Assembly: GCF_964019385.1 (NCBI RefSeq)
Contig: NC_088644.1
Coordinates: forward strand, 38,905,149-38,969,148
DNA length: 64,000 nucleotides
Reading direction: 5' to 3'
From: Sycon ciliatum
Taxonomy: Eukaryota; Porifera; Calcarea; Leucosolenida; Sycettidae
Shown: in pieces, positions 635 through 58,881 of the stretch
How positions within the stretch are numbered: position 1 is the first letter of the stretch
How the letters are laid out: every line of letters starts with the position of its first letter
Translations under genes and position numbers: made by a program
The notes under the pieces: generated by a model
Seen by the model: the letters and a program-made list of their open reading frames with translations, nothing else
Databases searched by the model: none
What the model was told of the DNA's origin: nothing

Positions 635-5785
<5,151 letters not shown>

Positions 5786-8348: not shown

Positions 8349-9224
8349 TCTACGGCGGGAAGCTGTCGTTGTTTCGTGGTTGCTCTTTCGTGTGAGCGAG
8401 ACAGCGCAGTACACAGCTAGGTCACTAGGTGACAGGATACATGGACTTGGACAAGCCATCGTCACAACAGAGAGGATGAGATGGCAAGCGATGAGCAGTG
8501 ACGGTACCAAAATAAAAATACTCTAAAGACGCTGTGATAGGCTAGCTGGAAGCGGGTATTGCTGTTGTCGTTGTTGTTGTCCGTGTTTTGAATGCACAAA
8601 CCAAACGCACAGAACTGCCCAGTGATGGAGAAGCGAATAATGAGTGTCAGTGCACTATGCAACAAAAGAGCCCGGGAACCAGACGAGACAGGACAAAAGG
8701 GGGGTTTGTGCAGCACTAGTTCAAAGAAGAGAGTGACCGGGATGGTTGCATTGGTTGGAGCACATAGCTGATGATTCATCCTGAAACTTACAACCGGACA
8801 TCTCTCCGTGAGCAGGATAATGCATTTTGTTCTAAAGAGTTAATTGCTTGGCCGAAAACTCCCAACATGTAGAGGGTATCTTCACTGTCCGCATATCTCG
8901 TCAATGTGGTAGCACTAACCCCAGCAGTCCGTTTGATTCGACCCGAGGGATCGCTTCATCCCGTCCTGCCTTGCATGCATGGCAGTGGATCTTTACTAGT
9001 TAGAGAGACCTAGTTGTCAAACTCTATAAAGACTTAGTATAATCGAAATACCACCCATGCATCCCCATCATGATTGCATGAGGAGAATCCCCATCCCCAT
9101 AGTGATTACATGATGAAAGGAACCAGGGAGTGGTGAACATGCTCATTGCTGGTATATCTGGACTACACCATTTCAATAATTCCTTGTCTGAACCAGGCTT
9201 GTAGAGTAAACTATCCCCTCTCCC

Positions 9225-9523
<299 letters not shown>

Positions 9524-9866
9524 GAGGGTTTATTGCCTATATTGACCTAGTACGAAGTCAGTATTTGATTTCTCACGACATACCAATGCATGTGTTCAAT
9601 TCCTAAAGAGGAATCAATTACTAAGCAATCGAATACTTAGAGCCCTAATGAGCGAAATATGGAGGAATATTAAAACTGCTTAAGTATAGCGATTAGAGTC
9701 CAAGAGAGTGATACGTATAGATTATAACAAGGGACCGTATGTATATAGATATATGTTATGCAGAGCTCACAAACTTGTCAGTTTGAGCACTCTGGCAAGG
9801 TACGTTCGGGCCTGATTGGAAATTTTTATTTCCATTGCTATCAGGTTCGGCCTCATTTCCTCTGTG

Positions 9867-9910
9867 CTGCGCTGACGAGTCCACAAAGGACGAAACAGTT
9901 CTGTCCGCAG
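9867..9910 (+). ncRNA. Type I hammerhead ribozyme, copy 1
   Basis: All core elements are present in order: helix I strand CTGCG (9867-9871), core CTGACGA (9872-9878), helix II GTCC/GGAC closed by ACAAA (9879-9891), core GAA, and helix III ACAG/CTGT with a 2-nt loop (9895-9904). C9905 is the cleavage-site base and CGCAG (9906-9910) is the second helix I strand. An outer CTC/GAG pairing across a UGUG/AUU internal loop extends helix I. The very short helix III is typical of Penelope/retrozyme-type hammerheads. Confidence 0.9.
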
Positions 9911-10092
9911 ATTGAGTATTTCGCTCCTGCTCTTGTAGCAGTTGAGCACTCTTGCGTGGGGTAGTGCCTTTGCTGTTTGCGTTATGCAGAGCTCACTGAC
10001 TTGTCAGTTTGAGCACTCTGGCAAGGTACGTTCGGGCCTGATTGGAAATTTTTATTTCCATTGCTATCAGGTTCGGCCTCATTTCCTCTGTG

Positions 10093-10136
10093 CTGCGCTG
10101 ACGAGTCCACAAAGGACGAAACAGTTCTGTCCGCAG
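10093..10136 (+). ncRNA. Type I hammerhead ribozyme, copy 2
   Basis: This is identical in sequence to copy 1, 226 bp downstream. CTGACGA is at 10098-10104 and the predicted cleavage follows C10131. Two intact copies allow release of a unit-length RNA. Confidence 0.9.
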
Positions 10137-10176
10137 ATTGAGTAGATATATATATATATACACCACGGTATAAAAC

Positions 10177-24345: not shown

Positions 24346-25759
24346 CAAACACAAGACAAGACACAGGGGATGTAGGGACGACGTGCCGATGTACAGGGAG
24401 CAACTCGACCGACCAGGGGTCTCGGCGTTAGCGTTGCAACCTGGCATCGAAAAAAAAGGGGGGTGCATGGTCAGGTAGCAAAAATAATAATTTGGTGCGA
24501 GAAAGGGGCGCTAGTATTGCACCAAATAATAATTATAAATACGTGTAATGACTAAACCAGAAGGGAAAATGAAGAAAGAGAACAATAATCATAACAAGCA
24601 AGTAGTAGTAGAGAGGTAAATACTAAATGGGTCTCAAATCTCAATATCATCGCCACAGATACTGTGTGGACCACAGCCATCTCTTTCGGATTAGATCCTT
24701 ACATACGTTGACCTTGAAGGTTTGGAGGCGTCTTGAATGAGGCTCGTGAAGCAGGAGGTCCGCAGGCAGGTTGTTCCAGGGTGTGATGGCGAAGAAGGGG
24801 AAGGATCGCAGGAGGTAGTCAGGGGCTGTGCGAGGGGGTGTCCACTTCAGCTGAAAGGCATGGTGCGTCTGACGTTTTTGCCGTGTGCACATGCTAGCTA
24901 CGGCATGGGGCTTGGTTGGTGGCAGCATGGCCTTTACCTGGGGAGGCCCTGGAATGTAGTGCAGCTTGAACAAGTATGACAGGGCTGCCACCATCCGACG
25001 AAGCTGAAGACTTTGGAGGATGGTTCCAGGTCCCAGGAAATGCAGGGCACGTTGCTGAACCTTGTCCAGCTGGGCCATGTCAGTTGCGGCTGCGCTCGAC
25101 CAGGCCAGTGGGGCATATTCAAGTAGGGGTCGCACGAATCCCTTGTAGACCGTCACTCGACCATGGTCGTCCAGGATGGGTGCTGCCTTTCGTAGGAAAC
25201 CCAGCCTTTGGGTGGCGCGCAGTGCAACACTGCGAGTGTGCGCTCTGTAGGAGAGAGTAGGGTCGAGCATGACTCCCAGCAGCTTCAGGGTATCTGTCTC
25301 CTGGAGTGCTTCACCTCCAAAGGTGACTGGTGGAGTGCAGGGGGGAACGTGCTTGCGATGTAGAGTCATGCGCTGTGTCTTGGCTGGCTCAAAACAGATA
25401 CGCCACTTGCGGCCCCACTCCTCAAGACTGTTGAGGGACCCTTGGAGGGAGGCGGTGGACTGTTGGAGATCGTCAGTTGGCTGTACTAAGCTGTAGAGTG
25501 TGGTGTCGTCTGCAAAGCTGCTCAGCTGCGTTCCTGGAGTTAAACATTGTTCAATGTCACAGGTGTATAGAAGGAAGAGGCTGGGTCCTAGGATGCTGCC
25601 TTGGGGGACACCAGCCTGGATGGGTTGAGCATTTGACGTCTGGCCTCCAACCACAACGCGGATGTTTCGGTTGGTGAGGTAGTCCTGTAGCCATACAAGC
25701 AGGCGTCCGTCGACGCCGGCCTGCTTTGCTTTGTACAGCACTCCTGTGTGCGATACCCG
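24306..25759 (-). mobile_element. CR1-like LINE copy B, 5'-truncated, inserted into copy A
   Basis: On the - strand the element begins inside the RT domain (about 25759) and ends in a 37-nt poly(A), seen as poly(T) at 24306-24342. It lies head-on inside copy A of the same family, splitting the DYLLRSF codons. TACC at both edges may be a short target duplication. Its 3' UTR shares the G/C-tract and hairpin block seen in the related copies. Confidence 0.8.
24647..25759 (-). pseudogene. Reverse transcriptase C-terminal half of LINE copy B
   Basis: One uninterrupted frame encodes the RT palm motifs AGVPQGSILGP and FADDTTLY (catalytic Asp pair), then the thumb and the C-terminal PWNNLPADLL block, ending at a TGA near 24647. 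The EN domain and RT motifs upstream of SHTGVLYK are missing through 5' truncation, as is usual for incomplete target-primed reverse transcription. Open frames extending beyond about 25759 are antisense to copy A and not part of the protein. The sequence is intact enough to be a young insertion but cannot be autonomous. Confidence 0.85.
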
Positions 25760-26505
25760 CCTCCTGCGATCCTTCCCCCTCTTCGCCATCACACCCTGGA
25801 ACAACCTGCCTGCGGACCTCCTGCTTCACGAACCTCATTCAAGACGCCTCCAAACCTTCAAGGTCAACGCATGTAAGGATCTAATCCGAAAGAGATGGCT
25901 GTGGTCCACACAGTACCTGTGACGATGATATTGAGACCTATTAAATAGTATTTACCTCTCTACTAGTACTTGCTTGTTATGATTATTGTTGTCTTTTTTC
26001 TTTTTCCCTCCTGGTTTAGTTATTACACGTATTTATATTATTTGGTGCAATACTAGCGCCCCTTTCTCGCACCAAATTATTATTTTTGCTACTTGACCAT
26101 GCAACCCCCCCCCCCCCCTTTTCGATGCCAGGTTGCAACGCTAACGCCGAGACCCCTGGTCGGTCGAGTTGCTCCCTGTACATCGGCACGTCGTCCCTAC
26201 ATCCCCTGAATGTTTTGTGATTGTCTCCACATGTCTCTTTGTAGGGCTGTGTTCCCAATAAAGTAAAGTAAATAAATAAATATAACCGTCTTGTCTGCCG
26301 CCCTGGGTCCAGTAGCGACTCGGACGTCACCCTCATAGAGTACCTGGACACCACAATCGACCTTGTGCGACACGGCGCTGCTCACACCATCCTCGCAGGG
26401 GACTTCAATGTGTCCAATGCGAGGTGGCTTGTAAGCACGAAGACAACTTCAGCCGGTGAGTACATGGAAGAGGTGGGTGCTGGGCGCCAGCTCACCCAGC
26501 ATGTG

Positions 26506-27436: not shown

Positions 27437-28017
27437 ACCAGGCAGGCACAGTGGGTTGGTCAAACTTCAAAAACCATGATTGAGATACGAGAGGTAGGTA
27501 CCTGGTTCAAGTCCTGCCTGGGAGCGTTTTTTTTCAGCCGTGCTGCTACCCACAGTCAACTGGGAACTTGTGGCCAGGCACAAGGGGTACATGGATGCAG
27601 CTAATGTGTCGTTCTCGGCACTTGTGCCAGTGGTTGTGAGACTTATCCACCCACCCCCACCGTTAGGCGCTGCATCTGCCGCTAGGGTTTACCGGGTGTT
27701 AGCGGCCGTCGGGAGTTCCCTTCGGGAACGGACACGATAATTTACTTAAACACACGGCGAGGAGACAATAATTTGATAACCGCAATCAATAAAACTAGCT
27801 GAACCGACATTTGTGTACTTTATTCATGCAATGTAAAAACTGTGGAGACGATGTGCAATAAAACGATGAAAATATGAAGAAATGGTTTTCCCTACACCAT
27901 TTCTTCATATTTTCATCGTTTTATTGCACATCGTCTCCACAGTTTTTACATTGCATGAATAAAGTACACAAATGTCGGTTCAGCTAGTTTTATTGATTGC
28001 GGTTATAATTTACTTAT
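27437..28017 (+). mobile_element. tRNA-derived SINE with a palindromic insertion
   Basis: The head is tRNA-like (CACAGTGGGTTGGTCAAAC; B box GGTTCAAGTCC at about 27504). The body is shared with 62012-62170 and, more distantly, 18625-19172. A 13-bp target duplication TTTTTCATTTCGT is exact at 27424-27436 and 28018-28030. The 3' end is split by a 256-bp insertion (27749-28004). Without it the SINE would be about 313 bp. Confidence 0.8.
27749..28004. mobile_element. Insertion built around a perfect 111-bp palindrome
   Basis: The arms at 27776-27886 and 27896-28006 are exact reverse complements over 111 bp, around a 9-nt spacer. The insertion is flanked by the 12-bp repeat ATAATTTACTTA at 27737-27748 and 28005-28016, which overlaps the palindrome end by 2 bp. 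There is no ORF. A duplication of this length suggests LINE-type retroposition. The transcript would be a long perfect hairpin. An amplification or assembly artefact cannot be excluded. Confidence 0.7.
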
Positions 28018-30330
28018 TTTTTCATTTCGTTTCCCACTCTCACACACACATGCTCACAGTCAATTCTGCCGTCGTGAGTCCCATTCGAGACGGATACGAG
28101 AATAATAAAAATAATAATCCGGAAACCCGTACCTCCCCGTTACCTCCCCTCGGAAAGTCTGACCAGCGGGTTGTACTATGTTCCTTTGCCTCAGCAGCGC
28201 CCGCGCTAGGGAGCCTCCCAAGTCTAGGCGTGCGTGGCGCTACAACCTTGCTGACTGGAGCCGCCTGCGAGCATTCCTGCACATCTCAGACTGGGATTCC
28301 CTTCTACAGGATGACCCAGTGGAGGCCTGCACTCGCCTAGCTCAGCAAATCCAGCTGGGCAAGGCGATGATCATCCCGAGCAAACGACTTATCACACGCC
28401 CATCGAATCCGACTTGATGGACACCTGAATGCAATGCTGCTGTCGCCGCAAAGCAACGACCTTGGAAGGCGTGTCAGCGGAATCCACACTCACAGCAGTT
28501 ATAAAACATGTATTCCGAATTTCCGATACCGTGGTATCGAATATTCGCACAATGGCAAGGGCACAAGCTGCCGGACAAATTACATTTCGCACTGAGCTTA
28601 CAGCTGGCTGCCTCAAAGACAAGGAATGGTGGAGTACCATTACGCGTGCAGGTGGTTTTGGACACCAGTCTGATATTCCCACACTCATTGATGAGAACAG
28701 CAGAGAGCACTGCACCGCGAAGGAGAAGTCGGAATGTTTTGGGAATTTCTTCTCACAGAAATGCAGTCTTGGAGACAATGGCATTGACCCGTCCAGCCTT
28801 CCAAGAGCCAAGCAACACAACCCACTATCAATTGGTATGATCCGCTTTCGCACTGCTGAGGTTCAGAGGGAGCTTCCCAAGCTCCAAGTCAACAAGGCCA
28901 CTGGTGCAGATAGTCTCCCAGCATGGGTTCTTCGAGAGTGTGCGAAAGAGCTCGCACCCCCTCTGACTAATCTGGTTGCCCTCTGTCTACGCTGCTCGCA
29001 TCATTCCAACCCCTGGAAAACGGCACACGGCGTGCCTATCCACAAGCGCGCTTCCAAAGCAGCAGTGATAAATTACCGACCTATCTCCCTTCTGAGCATT
29101 GTGTCAAAGATTATGGAGACCATCAACAACAGGCAAATTGTAAATCACTTAGAACGTCACATGATCCTATCTCCCAGGCAGTTTGGCTTCCGCCGTGGAC
29201 TTGGCACTGCCGACCTCCTCCCTGCCATCCATCATGAGTGGTCCGACATAGTGGGTCGCAAATGGAATCGCTCGACTTTTTTGCAGTCGACGTAGCTGGT
29301 GCTTTGATAACGTTTTGCACACTGGCATACTGCTCAAGGCTCAGTGCAATGTCTGTCGTTGGCTGGTCAATTCTGTCTTGGCTTCGCTCGTACCTTCAGG
29401 TAAGGAAGATAAGGGCTGTGACTGGTGACTTAGCTAGTGCACATTTTCGCTGCGCTCATCTTCCCCTCTTCGGTCCTACGTAACCATGAGCCTTCCAAGT
29501 TGGAAGGCTGTTGGTTTGCGCACTGGAGATGTGTTAGAGCTAGGTCTCGAGTCGCTGAATGTCTCAGTAGCCTGTCAGTTTTGTGCCCTGTTATCGCACT
29601 TTCTGACCGTTTATCATCTTGTTACAGTCGTGGGTAGTTGCTGCATAACTCGTTCTCATGTGTTTTTTTCTCTTTTTACATCTTTCTTCTTTCTTTCTTT
29701 TTAACCCCCCCCCTCCTCCTCCTCCCCCCTGGTGCGGGTAGTGTGCAAGAATACCGAGACCGTTGGTCGGTGGAGTTCACAACGCCCCACCTACACAGCT
29801 GCGCTAGTGGACCCTAGTCCTTGTAGTCAGCCAGTCTCAATAGTTGTTTGTTCTGTCAACCCACAACGTCTGTGTTCTAGTCGTATCTTCGTCCTTCCTG
29901 CAACTTTGTTATCTTTCTTGTTACAGGTATTCGTTTGTGTCTCGAGCCGGGTTTGTGTTCTTTATAAAAAATAAAAATAAAAGCACCAGAGGGTATCTTT
30001 TGTAGCTTTCCACTACGTGGTTCGCGGCTGTAGTTTTTATGGTGGGAGATCTGCGCCAAGCCAATGCTGGATTGTTCAATAGTAGACGCTCTGCAGAGCC
30101 TGGGAGCCATTGCCCATGACAGACCAGCATGGCGAGATCTATGCATGAGGGTCTGTGCATTGTGATATTCCGACAGATCCTGAAACAGTCAAACTCAGGA
30201 AATAGCACTATCATTATCACTCAGGCTGCAATATTCATATTATGGACATATTCATAAATGACATATCTTCAATACCCATGAGCTACATTGTATATAATAT
30301 ATATGATATAAGTATCATAATTATTATTAT

Positions 30331-34315: not shown

Positions 34316-34593
34316 GCAGTAAACACAGGTATACAATACAAGCGATGCAGATGAATGAGGCCGTTTGCTGAAAAGAAGATCTAAATACTTCTGAAAAGAC
34401 GCTGCGTCTTTAAGCATGGTCATAATGGGATAGTGCAAGAATTAAAGAGATGTTTTTAAAAACGAATTTAAACTAGGAACGCAGTAAACACAGTTATACA
34501 ATACAGGCGGTGCAGATCAATGAGGGAGTTTGCTGAAAAGAAGATCAAAATACTTCTGAAAAGACGCTGCGTCTTTTAGCATGGTCTGAAGGT
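34316..34593. repeat. Tandem duplication in the LINE 3' end
   Basis: Two diverged copies of about 113 bp (34316-34428 and 34481-34593) are offset by 165 bp. Both contain GCAGTAAACACAG, TTTGCTGAAAAGAAGAT and ACTTCTGAAAAGACGCTGCG. The second includes the ORF2 stop; the first lies in the 3' UTR and so carries a decayed copy of the ORF2 end. Confidence 0.75.
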
Positions 34594-37501
34594 GCTTAGC
34601 AAATGTAGTGCGGTGCTGGGTGCGCCACTCCACAGGCAAAGAATTAAAGAACAGGGCAGCACGATTTGAAAAGGAATTGACACCGTCAGTCGTCCGGAAT
34701 TTAGATATTGCAATAGCAGCATTAAAAGAGCTTCTTGTTGTCCTAGGGCCGGTTGAAACTTGAGGGAAAAGGTCCGTCAGATTTGGGAGAGGGAAAACGA
34801 CATGATTAACATGGATAAATTTAGCAATGCTACGAATAAGGTAATGTTCAAACGGATCAATCGACAATCTAGCTAACAGCGGTATGACGTCCTCTTGTAG
34901 TTTCGAGCCACAAGCAGCGCGTACAGAACGACGATAAACGGACGAGAGTCGCTGTCGGTCCTTGGCGGATAGCTTCATTGCAAAGCAAGAGCAGCAGTAT
35001 AATAAGTCAGGCAGGATAACCGAGAGGATGAACTGCCGTGTTGCCTTCAAACTTAGTTGCCGAAAACACCGTCGAAGAGCGCCAATTTTCGTGCAAGTCT
35101 TCCTAACGATAAAGTCTATGTGACCAGACCAAGAAACATCACTGTCTACAATGACTCCCAGGATTCTCGTGCTAGACACTTGAGTCAGAGGCTGTTGGTT
35201 AAAAACGATTGGAGTTGAGAGGGGTTGAGAAGACTTAGAAATCATCAAAGTTACAGTCTTTGTTGTATTAATGCGCAGCCCAAGCTCGTCTAGATCCACA
35301 GAAATTGCAGATAACGAATCAGTAACGGTAGCGACGGCCTCAGCTTGTGTACGTCTGCTGGCATACAACGTCATGTCGTCAGCGAACATCGGGAGCTTGC
35401 AAGAAAAGGCCTCTGCTGTCAATGGGAGCTTCCGTACATATATGTTAAATAGCACCGGACCCAGAATGGTGCCCTGTGGCACGCCACTAGTGATTGCCAC
35501 CAACGGAGATGTTCCAGTGTGGGTAACCACCCGCTGTTGTCTGGCACAAAGGTATGATCGGAACCAGGCCAGGGCCACTCCCGAAATACCGACAGCTGCG
35601 AGAGCAAGAAGAAGCTGTTGATGCTTCACCATATCGAACGCTTTTTTCAAATCAATACAGACAACCGCCGTATGCAGTCCAGCGTCGCGCGAGACAAGCC
35701 AGTCGTTCGTAACCTTGGTGAGAAGCTGTCCGGTAGAACGGTGCTTCCGAAAGCCAAACTGGTCCACATGGAATGGGCAATGATCATTAAAAAAAAGATG
35801 TATACGAGAAAACACAAGCCCCTCCAGGAGCTTGGCTAGGATAGATGTTAAAGACACTGGGCGGTAGTTAGAAGGGCAGTCGCGGGGGCCTTGAGTTGAC
35901 TTCAGAATTGGTGTAATGTTTGCAATTTTGAACAAGGATGGGAATTGACTAGACGAGAGGGAAGTGTTGAATAAGATAGCAAGTGATAGAGCAATTACGT
36001 CTTTTGATATTTTAAGTAGACACGGAAGAATGCCGTCCGGTCCAGGGGCTTTATTACTTTGGAGGTCACCGATCCGAAGCTTCACCTCTGCTACTGTAAC
36101 GGCTGAAAACGTAGTAAGGTCGTCGGATTTAGCAGGTCCCATTGGGAGCTTGTAATTCGCTTCCTTATCTGTGACAATCGAGTGAAAATAGTCGTTCAAT
36201 CGCTCAGGTGGGATGGTAACCGTTTGCTTCGGAGAGGAACGCTTTGTGATCATATTCAAGGCTTTCCAGAACTGCCGAGGCTCCCGTTCATACCGCTGGC
36301 ACTGGTCTGAAAAGTAAAGATTCTGTAGGTGTCGATACAAGTTATTGCACTGGTTGCGCAGCCGCTTGAATTGTACAGATAGGCTCTCGTCTCGAAAGTT
36401 AGTAGCTTTTAGTTTCTTGAAGACCGATTTGCGCTTTCTAATCAAGGCAAGGAGGGGCGAGGTCATGAACGGGCAATTTTTCCGACGGGACTTCCTGTGT
36501 TTCCTGGTTACGTACGGTGCGATGATATCAAGCACAGCATTGACTTTCCCTGTCCACTCGTCCAACATCAGGTCTGGGGTACGGGATGTAAAGATATGAA
36601 GATCGGAGGACAGCAGCATATCGCAGAAACGCTGAGCGTTGAAGTTCCGGTAGTCTCTGCGTGTTTGATGGGTAGTAGTATTGCTCCGCGCATCCATGAT
36701 GGGCACTGGGACGGAAGTAACGACGAGGCGATGGTCTGAAAACTCACAGTCCACGACAGAGGCTGACGGAACTCGATCAATGTTTGTGAGAATACAGTCA
36801 ATGGATGTACGGGTGGAGCCTGTTATTCTTGTTGCTTCAGTTACTTTATTGGCCAGTCTGCACGGAAGTAGCAACGTGTCTTTGAGATGGTGGAACGCAC
36901 TGGACGTCTGACGCAGAAAGTCCACATTTATGTCACCTAGCAACACAATATTCTCGCCGTCCAGCTGCTCCGTGGATGTAGCGAGCCGATTCCAAAACTC
37001 TACCGGCTCGGATGGGGGACGGTATATGCAACCAAACAAGGTACTATCTTTGCCTGTGCCAGCTCTAAGCCACATCAACTCTAGACTGGAGTGTGAGTGG
37101 TCCAATATGTGCTTAGCCTTAACATGTTCCTTTACGAAGATGCAGATCCCGCCTCCTTTACGACATGGAGTGCAGGAGGATAGGCAAGTGCATCCATCAG
37201 CGCACGGCCTGTCTCGACGTAAGAGAATTGTGCCTGGTACAGAAACCTCAGTGTCCGAGATGCTTGAGTCGAGCCACGTTTCCGTAACCGCTAGCAGATC
37301 TAGGCAGTGCTCATCTATTAGCTTAGTTATAACATGGGTTTTATGTCGTAGGCTGCAAATGTTTATGTGGCCAACATTTAGTCGGTTGGATGGATGAATT
37401 GTAGAGTAGAATGCTGGGGTTGAGGGATTTGGAGACGAAGGGGTGAACACAGGAGCATGCGGGTTCAGGGGCTGTGAATACCGGTAGGTGGTGTGTGGCA
37501 T
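34517..37501 (-). CDS. LINE ORF2: endonuclease-reverse transcriptase, intact
   Basis: The 994-residue ORF is uninterrupted. The N-terminal APE-type endonuclease shows GHINICSLRHK, ETWLDSSI, GDINVDF and SDHRLV (about residues 45-265). The reverse transcriptase shows NKAPGPDGILP, NYRPVSLTSILAKLLE, QFGFRKHRSTGQ, DLKKAFDMVKH, GVPQGTILGPVLF and FADDMTLYAS (catalytic Asp pair) at about 480-750. The C-terminus ends with a FNSLPVEWR block. No RNase H domain and no zinc knuckle were seen. This fits the CR1/L2 group. The start ATG shares a base with the ORF1 stop (TAATG), which suggests translation by termination-reinitiation. All catalytic motifs look intact, so the copy may encode active enzyme. Confidence 0.92.
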   Translation of the reverse strand: MPHTTYRYSQPLNPHAPVFTPSSPNPSTPAFYSTIHPSNRLNVGHINICSLRHKTHVITKLIDEHCLDLLAVTETWLDSSISDTEVSVPGTILLRRDRPCADGCTCLSSCTPCRKGGGICIFVKEHVKAKHILDHSHSSLELMWLRAGTGKDSTLFGCIYRPPSEPVEFWNRLATSTEQLDGENIVLLGDINVDFLRQTSSAFHHLKDTLLLPCRLANKVTEATRITGSTRTSIDCILTNIDRVPSASVVDCEFSDHRLVVTSVPVPIMDARSNTTTHQTRRDYRNFNAQRFCDMLLSSDLHIFTSRTPDLMLDEWTGKVNAVLDIIAPYVTRKHRKSRRKNCPFMTSPLLALIRKRKSVFKKLKATNFRDESLSVQFKRLRNQCNNLYRHLQNLYFSDQCQRYEREPRQFWKALNMITKRSSPKQTVTIPPERLNDYFHSIVTDKEANYKLPMGPAKSDDLTTFSAVTVAEVKLRIGDLQSNKAPGPDGILPCLLKISKDVIALSLAILFNTSLSSSQFPSLFKIANITPILKSTQGPRDCPSNYRPVSLTSILAKLLEGLVFSRIHLFFNDHCPFHVDQFGFRKHRSTGQLLTKVTNDWLVSRDAGLHTAVVCIDLKKAFDMVKHQQLLLALAAVGISGVALAWFRSYLCARQQRVVTHTGTSPLVAITSGVPQGTILGPVLFNIYVRKLPLTAEAFSCKLPMFADDMTLYASRRTQAEAVATVTDSLSAISVDLDELGLRINTTKTVTLMISKSSQPLSTPIVFNQQPLTQVSSTRILGVIVDSDVSWSGHIDFIVRKTCTKIGALRRCFRQLSLKATRQFILSVILPDLLYCCSCFAMKLSAKDRQRLSSVYRRSVRAACGSKLQEDVIPLLARLSIDPFEHYLIRSIAKFIHVNHVVFPLPNLTDLFPQVSTGPRTTRSSFNAAIAISKFRTTDGVNSFSNRAALFFNSLPVEWRTQHRTTFAKHLQTMLKDAASFQKYFDLLFSKLPH

Positions 37502-45700: not shown

Positions 45701-48700
45701 AGGGTGTTTCCTCACTCACTGTGATCACTTGGTAGTATGAAAAGCTTCTTAACACGGGAAACAGGGTGTTTCCTCACTCACTGTGATCACTACGTAGTAT
45801 GAAAAGCTTCTTAACACGGGAAACAGGGTGTTTCCTCACTCACTGTGATCACTACGTAGTATGAAAAGCTTCTTAACACGGGAAACAGGGTGTTTCCTCA
45901 CTCACTGTGATCACTACGTAGTATGAAAAGCTTCTTAACACGGGAAACAGGGTGTTTCCTCACTCACTGTGATCACTACGTAGTATGAAAAGCTTCTTAA
46001 CACGGGAAACAGGGTGTTTCCCCATTCACTGTGATCACTACGTAGTATGAAAAGCTTCTTAACACGGGAAACAGGGTGTTTCCTCACTCACTGTGATCAC
46101 TACGTAGTATGAAAAGCTTCTTAACACGGGAAGCAGGGTGTTTCCTCACTCACTGTGATCACTTGGTAGTATGAAAAGCTTCTTAACACGGGAAACAGGG
46201 TGTTTCCTCACTCACTGTGATCACTACGTAGTATGAAAAGCTTCTTAACACGGGAAACAGGGTGTTTCCTCACTCACTGTGATCACTACGTAGTATGAAA
46301 AGCTTCTTAACACGGGAAACAGGGTGTTTCCTCACTCACTGTGATCACTACGTAGTATGAAAAGCTTCTTAACACGGGAAACAGGGTGTTTCCTCACTCA
46401 CTGTGATCACTACGTAGTATGAAAAGCTTCTTAACACGGGAAACAGGGTGTTTCCCCATTCACTGTGATCACTACGTAGTATGAAAAGCTTCTTAACACG
46501 GGAAACAGGGTGTTTCCTCACTCACTGTGATCACTACGTAGTATGAAAAGCTTCTTAACACGGGAAACAGGGTGTTTCCTCACTCACTGTGATCACTACG
46601 TAGTATGAAAAGCTTCTTAACACGGGAAACAGGGTGTTTCCTCACTCACTGTGATCACTACGTAGTATGAAAAGCTTCTTAACACGGGAAATAGGGTGTT
46701 TCCTCACTCACTATGATCACTACGTAGTATGAAAAGCTTCTTAACACGGGAAACAGGGTGTTTCCTCACTCACTGTGATCACTACGTAGTATGAAAGCTT
46801 CTTAACACGGGAAACAGGGTGTTTCCTCACTCACTGTGATCACTACGTAGTATGAAAAGCTTCTTAACACGGGAAACAGGGTGTTTCCTCACTCACTGTG
46901 ATCACTACGTAGTATGAAAAGCTTCTTAACACGGGAAACAGGGTGTTTCCTCACTCACTGTGATCACTACGTAGTATGAAAAGCTTCTTAACACGGGAAA
47001 CAGGGTGCTTCCTCACTCACTGTGATTGCTAGTACCGTGTCTCAGTGGCCGCGAATCACGTTTGCATGAAGCTCCAAGTTGCAACGATGTGCACTGTAAA
47101 CTTCACTCTGCCTCCTGTTGAAGTTTCAGGTACATGCCTCTAGTGCTTGGATAAGTTCATGATGGCTGTCAAAGGAATATGTATGTACATGTACTAGTAT
47201 GTCACTAGCAATCTGTTTAGGTTGCTCCTAGCTGTTTGGGTCAGCAAAGATTTTCATTGTTGTCAGGAAATATCTGTGAAAGAAGAGAGAATATTTAAAA
47301 TACAGTTCTGATCAGAGGTATGTACATGTTGTCAATGTGCTGTAACAGGTCGTGGCTTCCAGAATTTACAAAGAGCCGTTCCGGAGAAAGATGTTTCAAC
47401 GAAGCAATGAATTAAAAAAAATGAAGCCGACATAATACCATGATGAACTAATAAAATAGAATATTTGAAGTAGAATTAAAAAGTCGGCGTTGTTGTGTTC
47501 TGCCTGGTGATGTCATGGTGTATTTTCTCACCTGTGCTTTGCAGATCCAGGTGGTCAGTCTATTTGTGGAGTCAGTACAGTAAGTAGAACACTACAAATA
47601 GTTACCGTCGATGAATAATTATCCTATCCACGATGGGAATTAACCGTATTGCGTGACCGATCCTTTCAATGTTCTAATCTTTACGTTTCCTTTCCCACCT
47701 GGACTCCTCCTTGGCTTACCTTTTCTCGCTAGCTCTCCTCTTGTACGTTCTTGCTATTAAGCGGGATTCACAGAAGCTTTTTTGCGATGCGGCACGCGAT
47801 GCGACAGCCGCGAAACCAGGAAATCCCCAAACCGCAGCCATCTCACAGCCCACGCAACTGCCGCAGCTGCGCCATCGCAGAAATTGAGCTTGGCTCAACT
47901 TTGGCGATGCGACACGCGATTTGACGTACGAATTTAACCTTTTCTACGGCAAAGTTGTACAAAGGTTCAAGAGTTGCCTGTAAAAGTTGTACCAAACCTC
48001 GCGTATACCATGGTGACGTAGCCACCTGCATTGAACTTCGCGCCAAATCAGCAAGGCGTTGTCGCATTGCTGACTTCTTCTGTGAATGGTATTTCGCGAG
48101 TTCGCATCGCACGCGTCCGTCGCAGATCACATCACATCGCGTGTCGCATCGCAAAAAAAGCTTCTGTGAATCCTGCTTTAAAACAAGTCGATCAATCCAT
48201 GGATTGTCATGGGAAGCTTGAATAAAACTCGGGCATTAGTGTTGGTGTTATCAATCTCCTTAGGTTCGTCAATACCTCTTGCCACTCAACGAGACGAAGG
48301 AAATGTGCACTTTAGGGGTGAAAAGGTATTGGGACAATATTCATTTGGTTTATAATTCTGGATGTGTAAGACGCCACTCTAGCCAGCATCTGTAATATTC
48401 GTGTATCATCTTTTCAGAAGTTGTCTGTCTCTTTCTCAATTTCGAAATTTGGTTGTATTGTGATTGATTGCTTTGTCTCTTTGCAGCCTGTCCGACCACC
48501 AGGTTTACGTGGTTTGCAGACGTACAGTAATATCGGGAGAACAAGGAGAAGTGTGGCCAAGAGTTCACAACTGCAGGGTGAGCCTGGCTTGGCGTATGTG
48601 CGGGACAAAAGAGCTAACACGGATATTGATGCGTTAAGGGAGATGTACTGCAATGACGAGGAAGTCCAGAGCGACATTGCACCGAAGGGAGATCTTCGAA

Positions 48701-49611
48701 AGAATAACAAGGGCGAGGCTGGCCGGCCCGGAGGTCTCATCGGACACAAAGGCTCGAGTTCTACGTCGGACCCTTGCAGTAGAGCCAACGTACTCAAGCG
48801 CTTTCTCAAGGAGAAACGGGATAAGTTGAGAGTTCTGGAGACGCTTCTTGGTGATCATGATTGCAGTGACTCATGTACCATCATTAGACGAGTCTGCGCC
48901 AGAACTGACTGTAGTACCCAATGCAACATAACAAGCTCTCCAAACCCCGCTACCACCACCACCACCACCCAGCAAGCCTTCCTGTATGATGAAACGGAAT
49001 CAGCTTGCGAGTCAAACACCCTCACTTCAACTCTTACTGATGTTGGCGAGCCACCATATTGGAACAGTGGAAAACAGGGTGTGCGGGGCATCCAAAACCC
49101 TGTTACTGTTCGCATTCCAATATTACCACCAAAGGGTGCCCCACCAACGAGCACAAGGATACGGCGACCACCTATTAGTGGCCCACCAGGTCCTCCTGGG
49201 TCCAGGGGCCCACCAGGTCCGCCTGGGTCACCAGGTGCTCCTCGGTCCCGGGGCCCACCAGGTCCCCCTAGGCCCAGGGGCCCACCAGGTCCTCCTGGGT
49301 CCAGGGGTCCACCAGGACCTGCCGGTTACAGGGGACGACCAGGTCCTCGTGGGTCCAGGGGACGACCAGGTCCTCCTGGTGCACGCGGCCCTCCAGGCCG
49401 TCGCCGCCGAGAAACGAGCCTGGAGACAGACTCACATATTATCCTGAACGAGGAGATCGATCAGCCACTGGAACATCATCGTGAACAGCGTCAGATTAAA
49501 GATGCACAGCAAGGTCCACAGGGCCTTCTAGGTGACCCAGGTGAAATTCGGTCTGGGAAAAGGAAGCCCAAGCTGCCAGATGAGTGTCGTTGCCGTAAGT
49601 GCAAAAAATAG
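39769..49611 (+). CDS. Secreted CUB protein with short collagen-like segment
   Basis: Five exons join in frame: 39769-39821, 41822-42321, 43793-43846, 47545-47579, 48487-49611, giving 588 residues. Exon 1 is a signal peptide ([15 protein letters not shown]). Exon 2 is a CUB domain: WEC start, [35 protein letters not shown]. Exons 3-4 are small and Gly-rich ([17 protein letters not shown]). Exon 5 has RTRRS (furin-like), an amphipathic helix ([15 protein letters not shown]) before a Cys cluster ([21 protein letters not shown] is split over this stretch), a Thr run, about 24 Gly-X-Y triplets ([10 protein letters not shown] type), RRRR, and a basic end CRCRKCKK. The exon phases and the CUB signature match the gene at 11541-15161, so they are paralogues. 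It is probably a trimeric secreted matrix or signalling protein. Intron 3 contains the 62-bp satellite. A polyadenylation signal may be AATAAA at 50500. Confidence 0.82.
40421..40886. repeat. Cluster of poly(G) tracts
   Basis: G runs of about 10-20 occur at 40421-40430, 40441-40455, 40661-40681 and 40867-40876, with (GGA)n between. All lie in intron 1 of the second CUB gene and on the sense strand. They could form G-quadruplexes; lengths are assembly-sensitive. Confidence 0.75.
42619..42683. repeat. Short GGGTAC-rich palindromic repeat
   Basis: Two units of about 39 bp each contain GGGTACC/GGGTAGC, ACGGGTACCC and ACTACCCG. The unit is rich in self-complementary CGGGTACCCG cores. It lies in intron 2 of the second CUB gene. 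Confidence 0.6.
42762..43088. mobile_element. MITE with TA target site
   Basis: The ends are TAGAGAGGTTAAGATGCACG and its complement (right end CGTGCATCTTAACCTCTCTA), about 22 bp each, bounded by TA. The interior has mirrored CGTGACGC and TTGACGTGAAATT blocks and no ORF. It sits in intron 2 of the second CUB gene. Confidence 0.75.
43578..43703. mobile_element. Hairpin MITE
   Basis: Imperfect arms share CTTTCAAGCCTTATC and its complement GATAAGGCTTGAAAG (about 43597-43611 and 43670-43684). They extend outward through TTTTCACTGGTATA and its partner. The total is about 125 bp with a short spacer. Confidence 0.55.
44661..47026. repeat. 62-bp satellite array, about 38 copies, with higher-order structure
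   Basis: The monomer is 62 bp and contains three palindromes (GTGATCAC, TACGTA, AAGCTT) and a hairpin-forming GGAAACAGGGTGTTTCC. Variant monomers mark a higher-order pattern: GGGAAGC occurs at 45074, 45694 and 46128, and TTTCCCCATT-type variants at 45400, 46020 and 46454. The spacings are 620 (10 units) and 434 (7 units) in both series. One monomer near 46795 has lost an A. The whole array lies in intron 3 of the second CUB gene. Confidence 0.95.
47761..48177. mobile_element. MITE with TTAA borders
   Basis: The termini GCGGGATTCACAGAAGCTTT and its near-complement at the right (CTTCTGTGAATCCTGC) are flanked by TTAA at 47757-47760 and 48178-48181. The subterminal parts repeat GCGATGCG and CGTGTCGCATCGC in inverted order. 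TTAA suits piggyBac-type insertion; a PIF/Harbinger 3-bp TAA/TTA site is an alternative. It lies in intron 4 of the second CUB gene. No ORF. Confidence 0.75.
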
Positions 49612-50728: not shown

Positions 50729-53192
50729 TCATGCTTCAACTGGCCGCTGCTCGACGAACGTTTGCGGTCGCCACATGACAAGACCGGCTGGTAGGCTTAG
50801 GGCGGCCGGTTGATGGGGGATGATGGAGAATTGGGGTTGTTGGTGCGGCTGCTGCTGGTGGTGTTCAGAGGAGTCGGATGATGCAGGACCTGTACTGGTT
50901 GGCGAGGAGCAGTCCGACCTGGGATGGTAAGATAGAGCAGCACACAGGTACACACACAGTTTATCAATATGTGACCTGGCTAGAGAATAGCGTTGGGATC
51001 AAAACACTTGGAAACGCTGAGAAGATTGTAAGAGAATTTCGAAGAATTCTGAAGTCTACTGTAATGCAAAGGGTACTATAGTTTGGGGTTCAATGAGCGA
51101 GAGACATTATCATGGTGGCAAGAAACCAGTACAGAATGGTAAGTGCTCAGAGATACATGTAGGGCACAAGACAACAAGTACTTCACACTCTAGTGACTTC
51201 ACATGTATGTTTCCAATGAACGATAGATGACTCAGGAGTCTGGAGAGTGATATCAGAATGGCAGTGTACTATGATAGTGTAATGGGGCAGCTGTAGCTGC
51301 TTCAACCTTCCTAAACGTAGCATATGAGAGTAATCTAACGACGAGACACACATGCACGGTATGTTCATCATAGTAACGTATACGTTTTAAGTCATGATCT
51401 TACCCTCTGACTACCCACGCTGGAGTACCATCCTGTGACGATGAGCTTGAGTGACTAGAAACAGCCATATCATCCTGATGGCCGCGACTACGCTGACGTT
51501 TGTTCTTGAACCTGCGCAGGGCAGCAACAAGGAAGGAGACGAAAAACAGCAATGGTGTCAGCACAGCCTTTTTTGGTGCATTGTTGTCACTTGTGTGGCT
51601 ATGCTGATATTGGATGCTGGGGCAGAGATGTCAAATTTGGCTTCACCAGTCATGCCTGCTGCCATTGTACACATTCTGTTGTCAGCTGAGTAATGCCAGG
51701 ATGATTGTAGGTGTCCAGAGGGATAGATCCATGACACTGACTGGAAACGTAATGTCATAAATCTATGCATTGCCAGTGCATGTACATGTACATGTATGGG
51801 AACGGAGCGAATTTAGCATCATACTCATAGTTAGTAGCTAGTCTCGGCCTTTGGGAGCCGGCATTGACCGGCCTTTCCAATCTAGGCAGCAGTGCACAGC
51901 AGGAGCACTCTACTCTCTAGGGCAGCTATGACAACGCTGGGTGCGTGGCGGGCGCTATGGGATTCAGATTACCCGTACCCGTACATGTACATGTGCATAT
52001 GACGCACATGTAGCTTCTGCACTGGACGACAGGGATTCCCAATAATTATTAATTTAAAGGGCGTCTACATCTGCTTAGAGGAAGTCGCAGCAATTCGATT
52101 CATTGAATACACAAGAAATTCCCCTAGGTCCAGACACATGCATGTACACTGCGCATGTAGGAGGAGTAATGAAGTGACAAGATTCCCGCCATGTCGGGTG
52201 GTCTTAGTGGGTAGTACTGCCGAGCTGTAAGCTGTGGGTGTGAGACATGACACAACGCCCTATGGCCTACTCAGCTACACAAGCAGTGCACGTTAAAATC
52301 GTCCCTTCGATCCGACTTCGCATATTCGGCGAGGTCAATGGCGCAGGTGAAGATGCATTTCTTGTCTCAAGGGAAGCTGTCGCAGCGCCCTTTCGAGCCA
52401 CTTGTAAGGAAAAGGGAACTCAATGTCGCACTTTTCCTTCCTAACAGGTTACTGAAGTAAAAGGACTAACGCTGTTTATCCGTTTGTGATAAGGACTAGC
52501 GATAATGGCAAAGCAGTCCAAATTCAAAGGTTTGAGCGAGTTGAAAACGGGAAAGTCTAAAGAAAAAAATAGTAACTACCGGTGTCCCTAACTAGATTCG
52601 CATGAGGAATCCTCACTTTAGGCCATCGTTGGCCTACCACTTTTAATTAAAGTCATGTTGCATTGGTTCCAATTTTCACTTACCAATTGCTGACCTGGAC
52701 GATGGTCAGGTTCGTCATGGCGGCTAGCTCTTGTTTTTGCTGTGCAGTTGGATACTGACTGCGATTGAACGCCACTGTCAACGTCTCGCGAACACGCTCG
52801 TCGAAGCAGAAGCTTGGCTGCGGGCCCTCGCAGATCGTGGCCGGCGGCGGGTACTTTCTCCGTACGCGGTACTTGCCGACCGGTCCGAGAGCCTTTCCGC
52901 ACCGCCTCTGTTCCGCTTCGTCGTAGTGCGCTTCGAACCAGAGATTCTGTAGCGTGGCGTGATGGGCACGGTCGAAGCAGCGGTTTCGGAGCATGCTGTA
53001 AAGTTCGGAGTAGCGACGCTGCTGGTAACACAATGCGCATCGACTGACCAGAATCGAATCGTTATTTGTAAACTGGGGAGTTCGTGGTAAGGACCATAAC
53101 AAGCGATCTAAGCGATCAAACTGCCTTGCTTCCAGCAAGGTGTTGCAAGCCGACTCAATGTCGGCAATGGAAAGAAGAGGTACAACCGACAT
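50729..53192 (-). CDS. SIX-class homeobox transcription factor
   Basis: Three - strand exons join in frame: 53192-52684, 51511-51404, 50918-50729, giving 268 residues. Exon 1 encodes the SIX domain (FDRLDRLLWSLPRTPQF, LQNLWFEAHYDEAE, GKALGPVGKYRVRRKYPPP) and most of the homeodomain, ending at VSNW. Exon 2 completes helix 3 with WFKNKRQR. Exon 3 is a Ser/Gln/His-rich tail. SIX proteins bind DNA and partner with Eya and Groucho in animal development. Divergent points are TICEG for the usual TIWDG, a Cys-rich SIX-domain stretch (SRCALCYQQ), RRCGKALG where relatives have RxRGKxLG, and FKNKRQR rather than FKNRRQR. The subfamily (1/2, 3/6 or 4/5) is not clear. I chose the ATG at 53192 because the SIX domain begins just after it; longer upstream frame has no family similarity. 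Confidence 0.9.
51778..51797. repeat. ACATGT tandem run
   Basis: A short self-complementary (ACATGT)n stretch. Similar runs occur at 34108-34120, 38354-38398, 39055-39071 and 51977-51992, making this a genome-wide simple motif. It lies upstream of SIX exon 2, in intron 1. Confidence 0.7.
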
Positions 53193-56100
53193 GATGCCAC
53201 GATGTCTTGAAACCAATGATCTGCAAGTAAAACTTTTTTTACAGCAAACAGCTAACTCACCAGCAACAGGACAAAGTGGAACTGATCTTCTCAGGCGAAG
53301 TGCAAGGACTTTTACTACCTTCCCACGCCAGTGTGCGAAACGGAGAGAATGAAGCGGATACTTTTGGGTGATGTCGTCAAAACCGCACGCCAGATCATTT
53401 ATCATAATTTTCCTCTGCTACATTGCTTCTTGGATTGGCAGCACAGTGACAGTTGACTTGGGAAAGCTGTCCAGGCAGTGACATTCGACAAACCACCTTC
53501 TTTGCAGGACAAGCAGCTTACGAATGCCACAGGCGACCTCCAGCTACTGCCTTCCCACGATCCCACAGGCCGTGCTGATCTGTTTAGGAATCCACGCTCA
53601 CTTCACCATGCCATGCACTGATGTAGTGCTCAGACACTGGGCCGGGATAGTATCGACATTGCAGACAGCCAGCCACAGCTATTCATGAGCCGCACTGTCA
53701 TGGAGACCTTACACGCTTACAGAGACGCGCTACAGTACAGAGAGTCTGAGAGACTGCATGTGTGTAGGCAGTTCGCCGGCATTCAGGATCAGGACAGGTA
53801 TCAGCAGCAAGACTGGATTCAGTGTCCGTGTCCTGCAAGTACAAGACGGTGAGGTACAGGTGCCAGTATCGATCCGACGATCAGTGACTCGGCTTTGGAG
53901 CCGGCTCAGCCGAGTGGAATTCATGGCAAGGCTCCATCCGTGTCGTGGATAGGTTGCAGGGGGGACGAGCTGAGAGTGAGACGATTCCATGATTGCGCTT
54001 GCCTCAGAGGCACGCCGGAGTGGACAGGGTTTGTGCGTAAGACCGTACTGCTGCTGGGCTCACACGACACTGGACAACATTGGCGTCGCTGAGGACAATG
54101 TCCCCAGGATAGACAACACAAATCAAGGAGTTCACTAACCTAGATGAGCTTAGTTCATCTATCATATGTGTGGATAGGCTGCAGGCAGGTTTATCAACAC
54201 GGAACATGAGTCTACTGGTGGACAATGACTATAATTATGCGTGCTATACCAAGCCATGCTACGCCATAACAACAATCAGAAACAGGCCGGGTTGAACTCC
54301 CGGACGTCTCCGGAGCCAAGGAATTCAGGCATCTGACTTTCTCCCTCTGAAGGGCACAGCCAGACAAGCCTCCAAGAGGTCCTCTTTCTCACGCTGTAAA
54401 CCAGTGCTGCGCCCTAATGGGCTTTTCGGGACATCCTTGTTGGCCGCCAGCTGATTGCGATAGGAGTAAGATGGGCGGGCAGTCACGGCGGCAGGTGGAC
54501 AGGTGGGCATGACACGGGAGAGATTATAATTTTCACTGAGAAAGGCACACTGCAGTACCGCATACACCAACAGTACGTACATGTGCCTCTCACAGCTCAG
54601 ACCTCCTGTTCCATACCTACACGACTACTCCGCACATCACACTCGGGGATTTCGTACATCATGTACTGTAGTACATGTAATCATGGATGAGAAACGTTCT
54701 TCCCGCAAACATGCCGCTCTCTGCATGTGGTTTGCCATGCGACCGTGCCCGGTTCCTGCATGTGTGAGCGTGTTCCACACAGGTGTGTAAATCCCTGAGT
54801 GAGGTGAAGATTAGGAAAGGACACTACAATCATGTACATGAACGTCGGTGACATGGCTGAGCCAAAGAATCAAGAATGCGATTCGGACAGATGCGGGGTC
54901 AGAGCGGACAATATCAATCTCATATCGCTGGTTCTCTATCACTTATCTATGAGAACTGTCTCCGAGTGCCGACAACAAAACTGAGTTTGCGATCAACACC
55001 TAGAGGTAGTTTCTCACGACAAAGCTGCACTCCGCACTCCTAACCTATTCTCCCATGGCGCCTTAGTACGAGACTCTTTCCGGATCATGCGGCTCTTCCT
55101 TGAACAGTTTGGTTTGCTGTGTTCCTTGTGCCCTCCAAGATGTTCTAACTACTTAGTTAGTCCCAGGCTTCCCAGCGATCGCAGACGTCAGACCAGATGG
55201 CAGCAGTCTCCAGTGCAGCTGATGCGGATGCTAATGGGCCTGAGTTATTAGTCCTAATCCTACAACATGTAGTTATAATTATGCTCTACATTGGCCATTC
55301 CTGGCGGACCAGATACATGTAATACAATGCACATGTATTGTATTGTATTGTATTTATTTAAAAGGATTCTCCAAAAGCAAATGGATGCTTATCACGGAAG
55401 TCTATGTGGTAACAAGCAGGTGCCTGGGAGGTTTGACCTGAACATGTGTGTTTGAGTGTGCATGGTGTCGCCTTCTTTCAAAGTTGAAATAATCATCATC
55501 CAGTCGGTGCCTAACAGCTACATGTAGTTCGTCGCGCTGAGGCAGTTTATGCCCTAAGCCGGTGTCGATTACCAGTCTGCGGTTGCATACTGACCCACAG
55601 CACATGGCCACAGCGTACAGGACACATCGCTGTGCCATCACTGGAAATGTGAGGGATCGGGTTTCATGTTCCACTGTTGTACAGCTTTATCGCCCGGCTC
55701 CGATTCATCATGCCCGTCTGCTGTGACTGATGTGGGCTGGCGTTGACAACACAACATGGTGTCACTTAGCGTACCGTCTTCAGGGACTGAGCAGCAGACA
55801 CCAAGAAGCTGCTGTATGATCTGACACCTACTTGACAGCGTTCTCAGGCTTTCTTGACGTCCGGATTGCGTTTAACAGCTCTGTCACCCGGAGCTTGTAT
55901 GCCCCAAGACTAGCTATGCATAGCCGGCGGGAATACATTAGTAAAGTGATCTCTGACACCACGTACGACTCCGGGAGACTCGGGCTGAGCTCGTCTCAGC
56001 TGCTTACAAATTCCAGCGCGCCGACACAGCAATACAGTGCGATTGGCTTCATTCGTTGATCTCTGATAGATGGAGTGACGGGAACTGCATTCTTGACGCA

Positions 56101-58759: not shown

Positions 58760-58881
58760 TATGATCAGTCACCACCGCTACACAAAGGTCGTTGACGCTG
58801 CAAATTTTATTCAAATGCTATCTCCAAATAAAAAAATTTGCAGCGTCAACGACCTTTGTGTAGCGGTGGTGACTGATCATA
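58760..58881. repeat. Perfect 49-bp inverted repeat with 24-nt spacer
   Basis: 58760-58808 and 58833-58881 are exact complements (TATGATCAGTCACCACCGCT and on). The spacer is A/T-rich. A transcript would fold into a 49-bp perfect stem, similar in size to a microRNA or siRNA precursor. No ORF and no clear target duplication. Confidence 0.85.

Follow-up and report, generated by a model that had tools for sequence, protein, structure and literature searches.

A hammerhead-bearing repeat in the sponge Sycon ciliatum with the features of a non-LTR retrozyme and one fixed end to its insertions

How does a repeat of a few hundred base pairs, with two hammerhead ribozymes and no long reading frame, come to be inserted in the DNA of a calcareous sponge, Sycon ciliatum, from what RNA and by whose enzyme? 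Non-LTR retrozymes are established in animals, as described by Cervera and de la Pena (2020, PMC7229834), and the available text of a review (PMC7761336) states as open both their route back into DNA and the owner of the enzyme. The locus that raises the question lies in a stretch of 64,000 nt, analysed as a whole and called the window here. Its insert at 9755-10143 measures 389 bp and consists of one 226-nt unit plus 163 nt, or 1.72 units. An earlier note on this DNA had called it dimeric, which holds for the two ribozymes and their 226-nt spacing but not for the length, which is one lap plus 0.72 lap. A 164-nt sequence stands there twice in direct orientation, at 9755-9918 and again at 9981-10144 (99% identity), with starts 226 nt apart. 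Since base 10143 is common to the insertion and its target duplication, we place the retrozyme insertion at 9755-10142 on the plus strand, delimited by the direct repeat and by the 3' end found in 54 of the 56 distinct insertions compared below. Counting the first base after the ribozyme cut as position 1, it runs from a 5' end at unit position 76 to a 3' end at unit position 11. The flanking duplication, previously put at 8-9 bp, is 9 nt in its exact form, TAGATATAT, at 9746-9754 on the left and 10143-10151 on the right (plus strand); taken alone it might be chance, because the surrounding sequence is AT-rich. The description of the repeat as non-coding agrees with a search for ORFs of at least 100 aa, which gave none inside 9755-10143. 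GC content is 49.6% for the unit and 48.8% for the window element. A (CT)n microsatellite of ~300 bp, recognized by eye, lies upstream at 9205-9518.

Both ribozymes are type I hammerheads by their matches to Rfam model RF00163, at 9866-9911 and 10092-10137 (plus strand), with copies 226 nt apart from start to start, as the earlier note had it. Each match scores 30.1 bits, with an E value of 2.3e-5 in a 701-nt search and 0.0021 over the whole 64-kb window. The covariance model thus recognizes each ribozyme by E value but at a score under the Rfam gathering score of 34, and for that reason a default Rfam scan of the window at the gathering score lists no hammerhead. Genomic sisters reach 34.9 bits, and four are over the cut-off among the 21 matches listed from a genome search in which 74 of 76236 first-look candidates were scored. 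The predicted cuts, 9905^9906 and 10131^10132, enclose 226 nt, the length of RNA expected to be released; from the RF00163 positions and the 226-nt spacing, the full unit and predicted monomer RNA is 9906-10131 (plus strand). Read by eye, helix I is CUGCG/CGCAG, perhaps extended past an internal loop by CUC/GAG (9860-9862 with 9914-9916), and helix II is UCC/GGA with loop II ACAA; an internal loop reads UGUG/AUU. Helix III is ACAG/CUGU with loop UU. The core and all three helices are present as claimed, with the qualification that helix III is short, 3-4 bp with a loop of 2-4 nt. It is nevertheless a canonical helix III, unlike the ACGU of the minimal form carried by Penelope-like elements (PLEs). 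The linear unit folds better than shuffled sequence (z -3.1; 2 of 200 shuffles as good), and its circular fold reaches -75.6 kcal/mol against -63.0 +/- 4.9 kcal/mol in shuffles, 1 of 100 being as good. A chance hammerhead is ruled out by the E value of 2.3e-5 obtained twice and by over a thousand sisters in the genome, and we infer that RNA of the unit cleaves itself.

The sisters are numerous. A ribozyme-core pattern matches the genome 1437 times (685 + 752; reversed control 0), and exact copies of helix III with the cut and the following ATTGAG number 1643 (792 + 851; control 0). The earlier note had named a single occurrence as refuting its reading; the 1437 core matches exclude that and rule out an origin by local duplication only. 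A whole-genome DNA search with the 226-nt unit, in which very common words are skipped, gave no candidates. The note had proposed a search for other dimers, and further multimers exist: two to five ribozymes are carried by 14 of the 56 distinct insertions, and one was detected in each of the 42 others. Units fall into two subfamilies, of 226 nt and of about 239 nt, set apart by a single piece that measures 19 nt in one and 32 nt in the other. A variant hammerhead has UUC/GAA for UCC/GGA in helix II, a pairing-preserving double change, together with a longer helix III, AGCAUGCU; it makes up 7 of the 81 ribozymes gathered by motif search in the window and an early set of the loci. We also observed a second hammerhead family with different helices, of which only two copies were seen (L013:2001-2042 and L020:2001-2045, both on the minus strand; RF00163 scores 32.6 and 32.5 bits). 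These two share the ATTGAG tail at an equal distance from the cut. Loci L034 and L036 have common flanks around inserts of 386 and 160 nt, one 226-nt unit having been lost or gained after duplication of the locus, in the manner of a solo-LTR event.

The ends of the insertions bear most directly on how they were made. We read ends in the window and in loci L001-L071, which comprise all 21 listed RF00163 matches and roughly the first half of the ~100 listed core places (all on contig C1). This gave 62 chains, 59 of them with usable ends, the others running beyond unit position 25 or lying too near the end of a locus. Removal of L012, L023 and L036 as duplicated flanks left 56 distinct insertions, all from loci chosen for a good ribozyme. 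One chain, in L003, joins two neighboring insertions and is counted once with an overstated length: foreign sequence separates its third and fourth ribozymes, which are spaced 207 nt apart, and both insertions end at the tail. The 3' end falls at unit position 10-16 in 54 of the 56, reading ..CGCAGATTGAG|TA; the two exceptions end at position 6 (L007) and exactly at the cut (L021). In the window this conserved tail, CGCAGATTGAG, spans 10132-10142 (plus strand) from cut to insertion end by the same comparison. The 5' starts are spread across the unit and cannot be distinguished from uniform (KS p 0.48), and insertion lengths range from 48 to 1140 nt, under a quarter lap to about five laps. A whole-unit blastn search of the window and every collected locus returned 68 distinct stretches, including L081 and L082, which were chosen for opposite-strand neighbors and stand outside the 56; a motif test places the end of 63 of the 68 at the tail. 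Of the five that fail it, L044 carries a tail with a single change, L002 reaches the tail past a deletion, and the ends of L007, L020 and L021 lie elsewhere. An artefact of the search is rejected as the source of the fixed end, since downstream ends were free to vary and yet 54 of the 56 did not; copies ending upstream of the ribozyme would escape, because the searches require a ribozyme. Further clusters of 5' ends, six each, occur at unit positions 73-79, where the window copy belongs, and 176-182, possibly pause sites of the reverse transcriptase.

Target duplications accompany these ends. Exact duplications of at least 9 nt flank 25 of the 56 insertions, compared with a mean of 0.41 and a maximum of 3 in 200 shuffles of the pairing between left and right flanks. 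Of these 25 duplications, 19 have high complexity, and 17 of the 19 measure 9-15 nt when G11 is taken as the end of the element; in L014 and L050 exact matches of 12 and 9 nt are offset from that point. The first target base is T and the second A in 16 of 19 cases each, and the preceding bases are A (12/19) and C (10/19). This T-A is identical to the next bases of the RNA, U12-A13, so primer and template could pair over a short stretch, although a preference of the nuclease would give the identical pattern. Because the 3' end is fixed, the 5' ends are ragged and the target is duplicated, we read the insertions as products of target-primed reverse transcription: such ends are what copying from one internal start site gives. 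Dozens of insertion ends thus indicate a single initiation site. Reverse transcription would start just 3' of the tail CGCAGATTGAG. Within an array or circle the tail continues into TATTTCGCTCC (window 9917-9927, plus strand), where a local fold pairs GAGU with GCUC (-2.4 kcal/mol); together with GAG, TATTTCGCTCC might fold into a small hairpin and expose the start site.

A smaller set of loci points to priming on both strands. The loci examined contain four pairs of arrays in opposite orientation with under 300 nt between them, three facing outward (L019, L081 and L082) and one inward (L030). In the three outward pairs both 3' ends lie outside and at the tail. The elements of L082 abut, separated by 11 nt that resemble the unit; each outer end is the tail, and TACATCATTACA, a stretch of 12 nt, stands on both sides of the pair, inside a local repeat. 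The duplication of L081 is ambiguous because that pair sits in a (TATG) repeat, and L019 has none, which leaves L082 as the only outward pair with a clear shared duplication. The outward pairs, few as they are, suggest that both DNA strands were primed. In vitro work on a lizard PLE offers a parallel: as described by Frangieh et al. (2024, PMC11167929), that element cleaves and extends both target strands and starts at two internal sites past its hammerhead, which are the ends of its genomic copies.

The position of the start also constrains the template. Because the 3' end of the insertions, and with it the start, lies beyond the ribozyme cut, a cut linear monomer is excluded, and the template is either a closed circle or an uncut multimer. 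We consider it probable that the element is a non-autonomous retrozyme copied from a fixed site in RNA derived from read-through transcripts, by the reverse transcriptase of another element, most likely a PLE, acting in trans. Under this proposal, RNA reading through an array would be cut by the hammerheads into 226-nt monomers, which, by analogy with known retrozymes, are probably ligated into circles. The reverse transcriptase would then nick AT-rich DNA before T-A and begin copying at one internal RNA site about 11-13 nt past the cut, as the 3' ends imply. It would cover between part of one lap and about five laps, stopping anywhere and leaving 5'-truncated or tandem inserts with the target duplications, mostly of 9-15 nt, that are seen in the DNA. 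Occasional priming of both target strands would yield inverted arrays with their 3' ends outward, like the three pairs above. We put forward more tentatively, leaning somewhat toward doubt, that the circle carries its own start signal, the ATTGAG tail with the loop that follows it, and serves as a rolling template for an enzyme of PLE type with one or both target strands primed. The tail, which the different hammerhead of L013 and L020 also has, would be the recognition element. Were this so, genomic ends would record both the start site and the number of laps in the copying of a circular RNA.

The chief competitor to a circular template, rather unlikely in our judgement, is an uncut linear multimer, copied from an internal start upstream through several units. 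It draws support from PLEs, since hammerhead mutants of one such element had no effect on insertion in vitro and Frangieh et al. suggest unprocessed RNA as the main substrate (PMC11167929). In 16 arrays, drawn from a set that includes L081 and L082, the identity of units within an array has a mean of 0.957 and a median of 0.984, against 0.940 and 0.939 between arrays, an excess reached by 1 of 500 permutations. This speaks against the multimer, yet 5 of the 16 arrays (L027, L030, L045, L057 and L058) have a mean within-array identity below 0.95, a divergence that could also reflect age. Inserts of almost exactly one lap, which start at 10-16, also argue against it: there are 6 among the 56 where 1.7 are expected (p 0.008), an excess that depends on the interval chosen, weakening to p 0.054 at 8-18, and the clusters at 73-79 and 176-182 are equally large. 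Retrozyme RNA circles are described as plentiful in other animals (PMC7229834), a further point for the circle.

With a circle as the favored template, the remaining question is whose enzyme copies it. A GIY-YIG search of the genome gave 13 matches. In the 807-aa frame of L080, Pfam detects GIY-YIG and nothing else; we take the frame to include a reverse transcriptase, recognized by motif and by eye. Minimal hammerheads with helix III ACGU lie 3' of the endonuclease in L073, L074, L076, L079, L080 and L083-L086, and in L075, L077 and L078 the same motif search detected none. At its 5' side L080 bears a second version of its 3' end in inverted orientation (278-662 and 3124-3513, 96% over 390 nt); both ends face outward, AGTTGTCTTCC is present at both sides, and one copy is ~36 nt longer, a difference that would be consistent with two start sites. 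A long Penelope-like copy in L083 likewise contains large inverted parts (1-1047 and 1908-2954, 99%). One PLE family has 102 exact minimal hammerheads in the genome (control 0), and among its matches listed, opposite-strand neighbors within 6 kb face outward in 6 of 6 cases by eye, two of these pairs being equally spaced and perhaps one duplicated locus. Across 20 stretches with 23 ribozymes of this family, many copies end, by eye, close to one of two sites, the short one reading ..CTCTTAAC and the long one ..CTTTTACTT; those ending elsewhere include L089, L103 and one in L104 (by eye).

The resemblance of the retrozyme to these elements is one of behavior. As described for hammerhead PLEs (PMC11167929), copying starts internally past the cut, copies end at the start site and the target is AT-rich, and the extension of both strands by the lizard element is matched by what the outward pairs suggest for Sycon. 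The start lies about 85-92 nt past the cut in the lizard element, by the coordinates given in PMC11167929, and about 11-13 nt past it in the retrozyme; in PLE copies of Sycon the end is reached some 70-120 nt beyond their own cut. Compared with PLE loci L073-L080, the retrozyme unit gave no similarity above noise (best blastn E 1.4). Because no sequence is held in common with these loci and the distances from cut to end differ, behavior is what links the two. The retrozyme end GAGT resembles GAGTT, with which L080-type PLEs end, but this likeness was discounted, as another PLE family ends differently. A motif that might betray the helper is also absent from metazoan repeats generally, none being conserved according to the available text of the review (PMC7761336). 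Mobilization by a PLE is therefore favored and not proven. A direct test of the hypothesis becomes possible with a single purified protein and a single 226-nt RNA.

An APE-type LINE could instead move the same retrozyme, which we judge unlikely. The target duplications, mostly 9-15 nt, are LINE-like; 15-bp duplications round Nematostella repeats have been compared with those of LINEs (PMC4918200), and LINE-type reverse transcriptases occur in the window. A poly-A or simple-repeat tail was not seen, however, and the duplications start with T-A, whereas the L1-type target site is A-rich. The inverted pairs hold two complete 3' ends, which twin priming by L1 is not known to yield. They match instead a PLE that extends both strands, as the lizard element is described to do (PMC11167929). 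A 994-aa frame of the window at 34517-37501 (minus strand), probably a LINE, has a reverse transcriptase domain and an endonuclease match below cut-off; further pieces lie at 24647-25804 (minus strand) and, below cut-off, at 28429-29295 (plus strand).

Whichever enzyme is used, the element itself fits the metazoan class of non-LTR retrozymes. The earlier note had called it retrozyme-like, a judgement with which the genome copies agree: they are interspersed and of high copy number, occur in tandem or as partial units, and carry target duplications and a type I hammerhead in a 226-nt unit. Metazoan retrozymes are tandem repeats of ~150-450 bp with a type I hammerhead, dispersed as monomers to multimers, and this is what we find in Sycon. 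In the account of PMC7229834 the tandem unit measures 220-240 bp in Acropora, GC content is below 50%, duplications exceed 4 bp (at least 9 nt here in 25 of 56) and the repeats co-occur with PLEs bearing minimal hammerheads. Against the metazoan retrozymes described so far in the sources consulted, the sponge host, the fixed 3' end of the insertions and the outward inverted pairs stand out. Plant LTR retrozymes share a non-autonomous hammerhead unit thought to move via circles, but as described they have type III hammerheads, LTRs with PBS and PPT, and 4-bp duplications (PMC4918200), with circles of 600-800 nt (as given in PMC7229834); the Sycon element differs in its type I ribozyme, 226-nt unit and longer duplications (9 nt in the window). 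In open-licence papers, supplements excluded, we found no report of a hammerhead or retrozyme from Porifera or Sycon ciliatum, and in the open-licence literature retrozymes and target-primed reverse transcription were found together for LTR elements only. As far as the literature searched reaches, the element would extend retrozymes to sponges; that it is the first there is unproven.

Two other identities fare poorly. The element might be a degenerate terminal repeat (pLTR) of a PLE and not independent at all, given that its 163-nt direct repeat round 63 nt resembles the pLTR layout and that PLEs of the Sycon genome also bear hammerheads. This is very improbable: the hammerhead is canonical, with a helix III that the minimal PLE form lacks, the unit resembles none of L073-L080, units of 226 or about 239 nt form arrays of up to five ribozymes, and the window copy has no coding part of 100 aa, hence no reverse transcriptase or GIY-YIG frame of that size such as PLEs have. 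An ordinary satellite, in which DNA-level tandem duplication carries the hammerheads as passengers, can be set aside almost entirely. In its favor, the units stand in tandem, and L034 and L036, which have common flanks but differ by one unit, show that arrays can shrink or grow at the DNA level. It is contradicted by copies that are dispersed, single or partial, flanked by target duplications and alike in their 3' end.

Several other features were recorded along the way. Locus L072, on contig C291, has a 640-aa frame, open at one end, that by eye resembles bacterial UvrC; it was rejected as a PLE on that ground, and the contig is perhaps a symbiont or contaminant in the sponge assembly. The window also contains a SIX homeobox exon at 52680-53405 (minus strand), 100% identical to a SIX6-like protein of Sycon ciliatum over 71% of the query, and a collagen-repeat frame at 48421-49611 (plus strand). 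Hairpins at 27807-27975 and 58777-58865 matched several microRNA families on both strands, well below cut-offs, and are perhaps inverted-repeat transposons.
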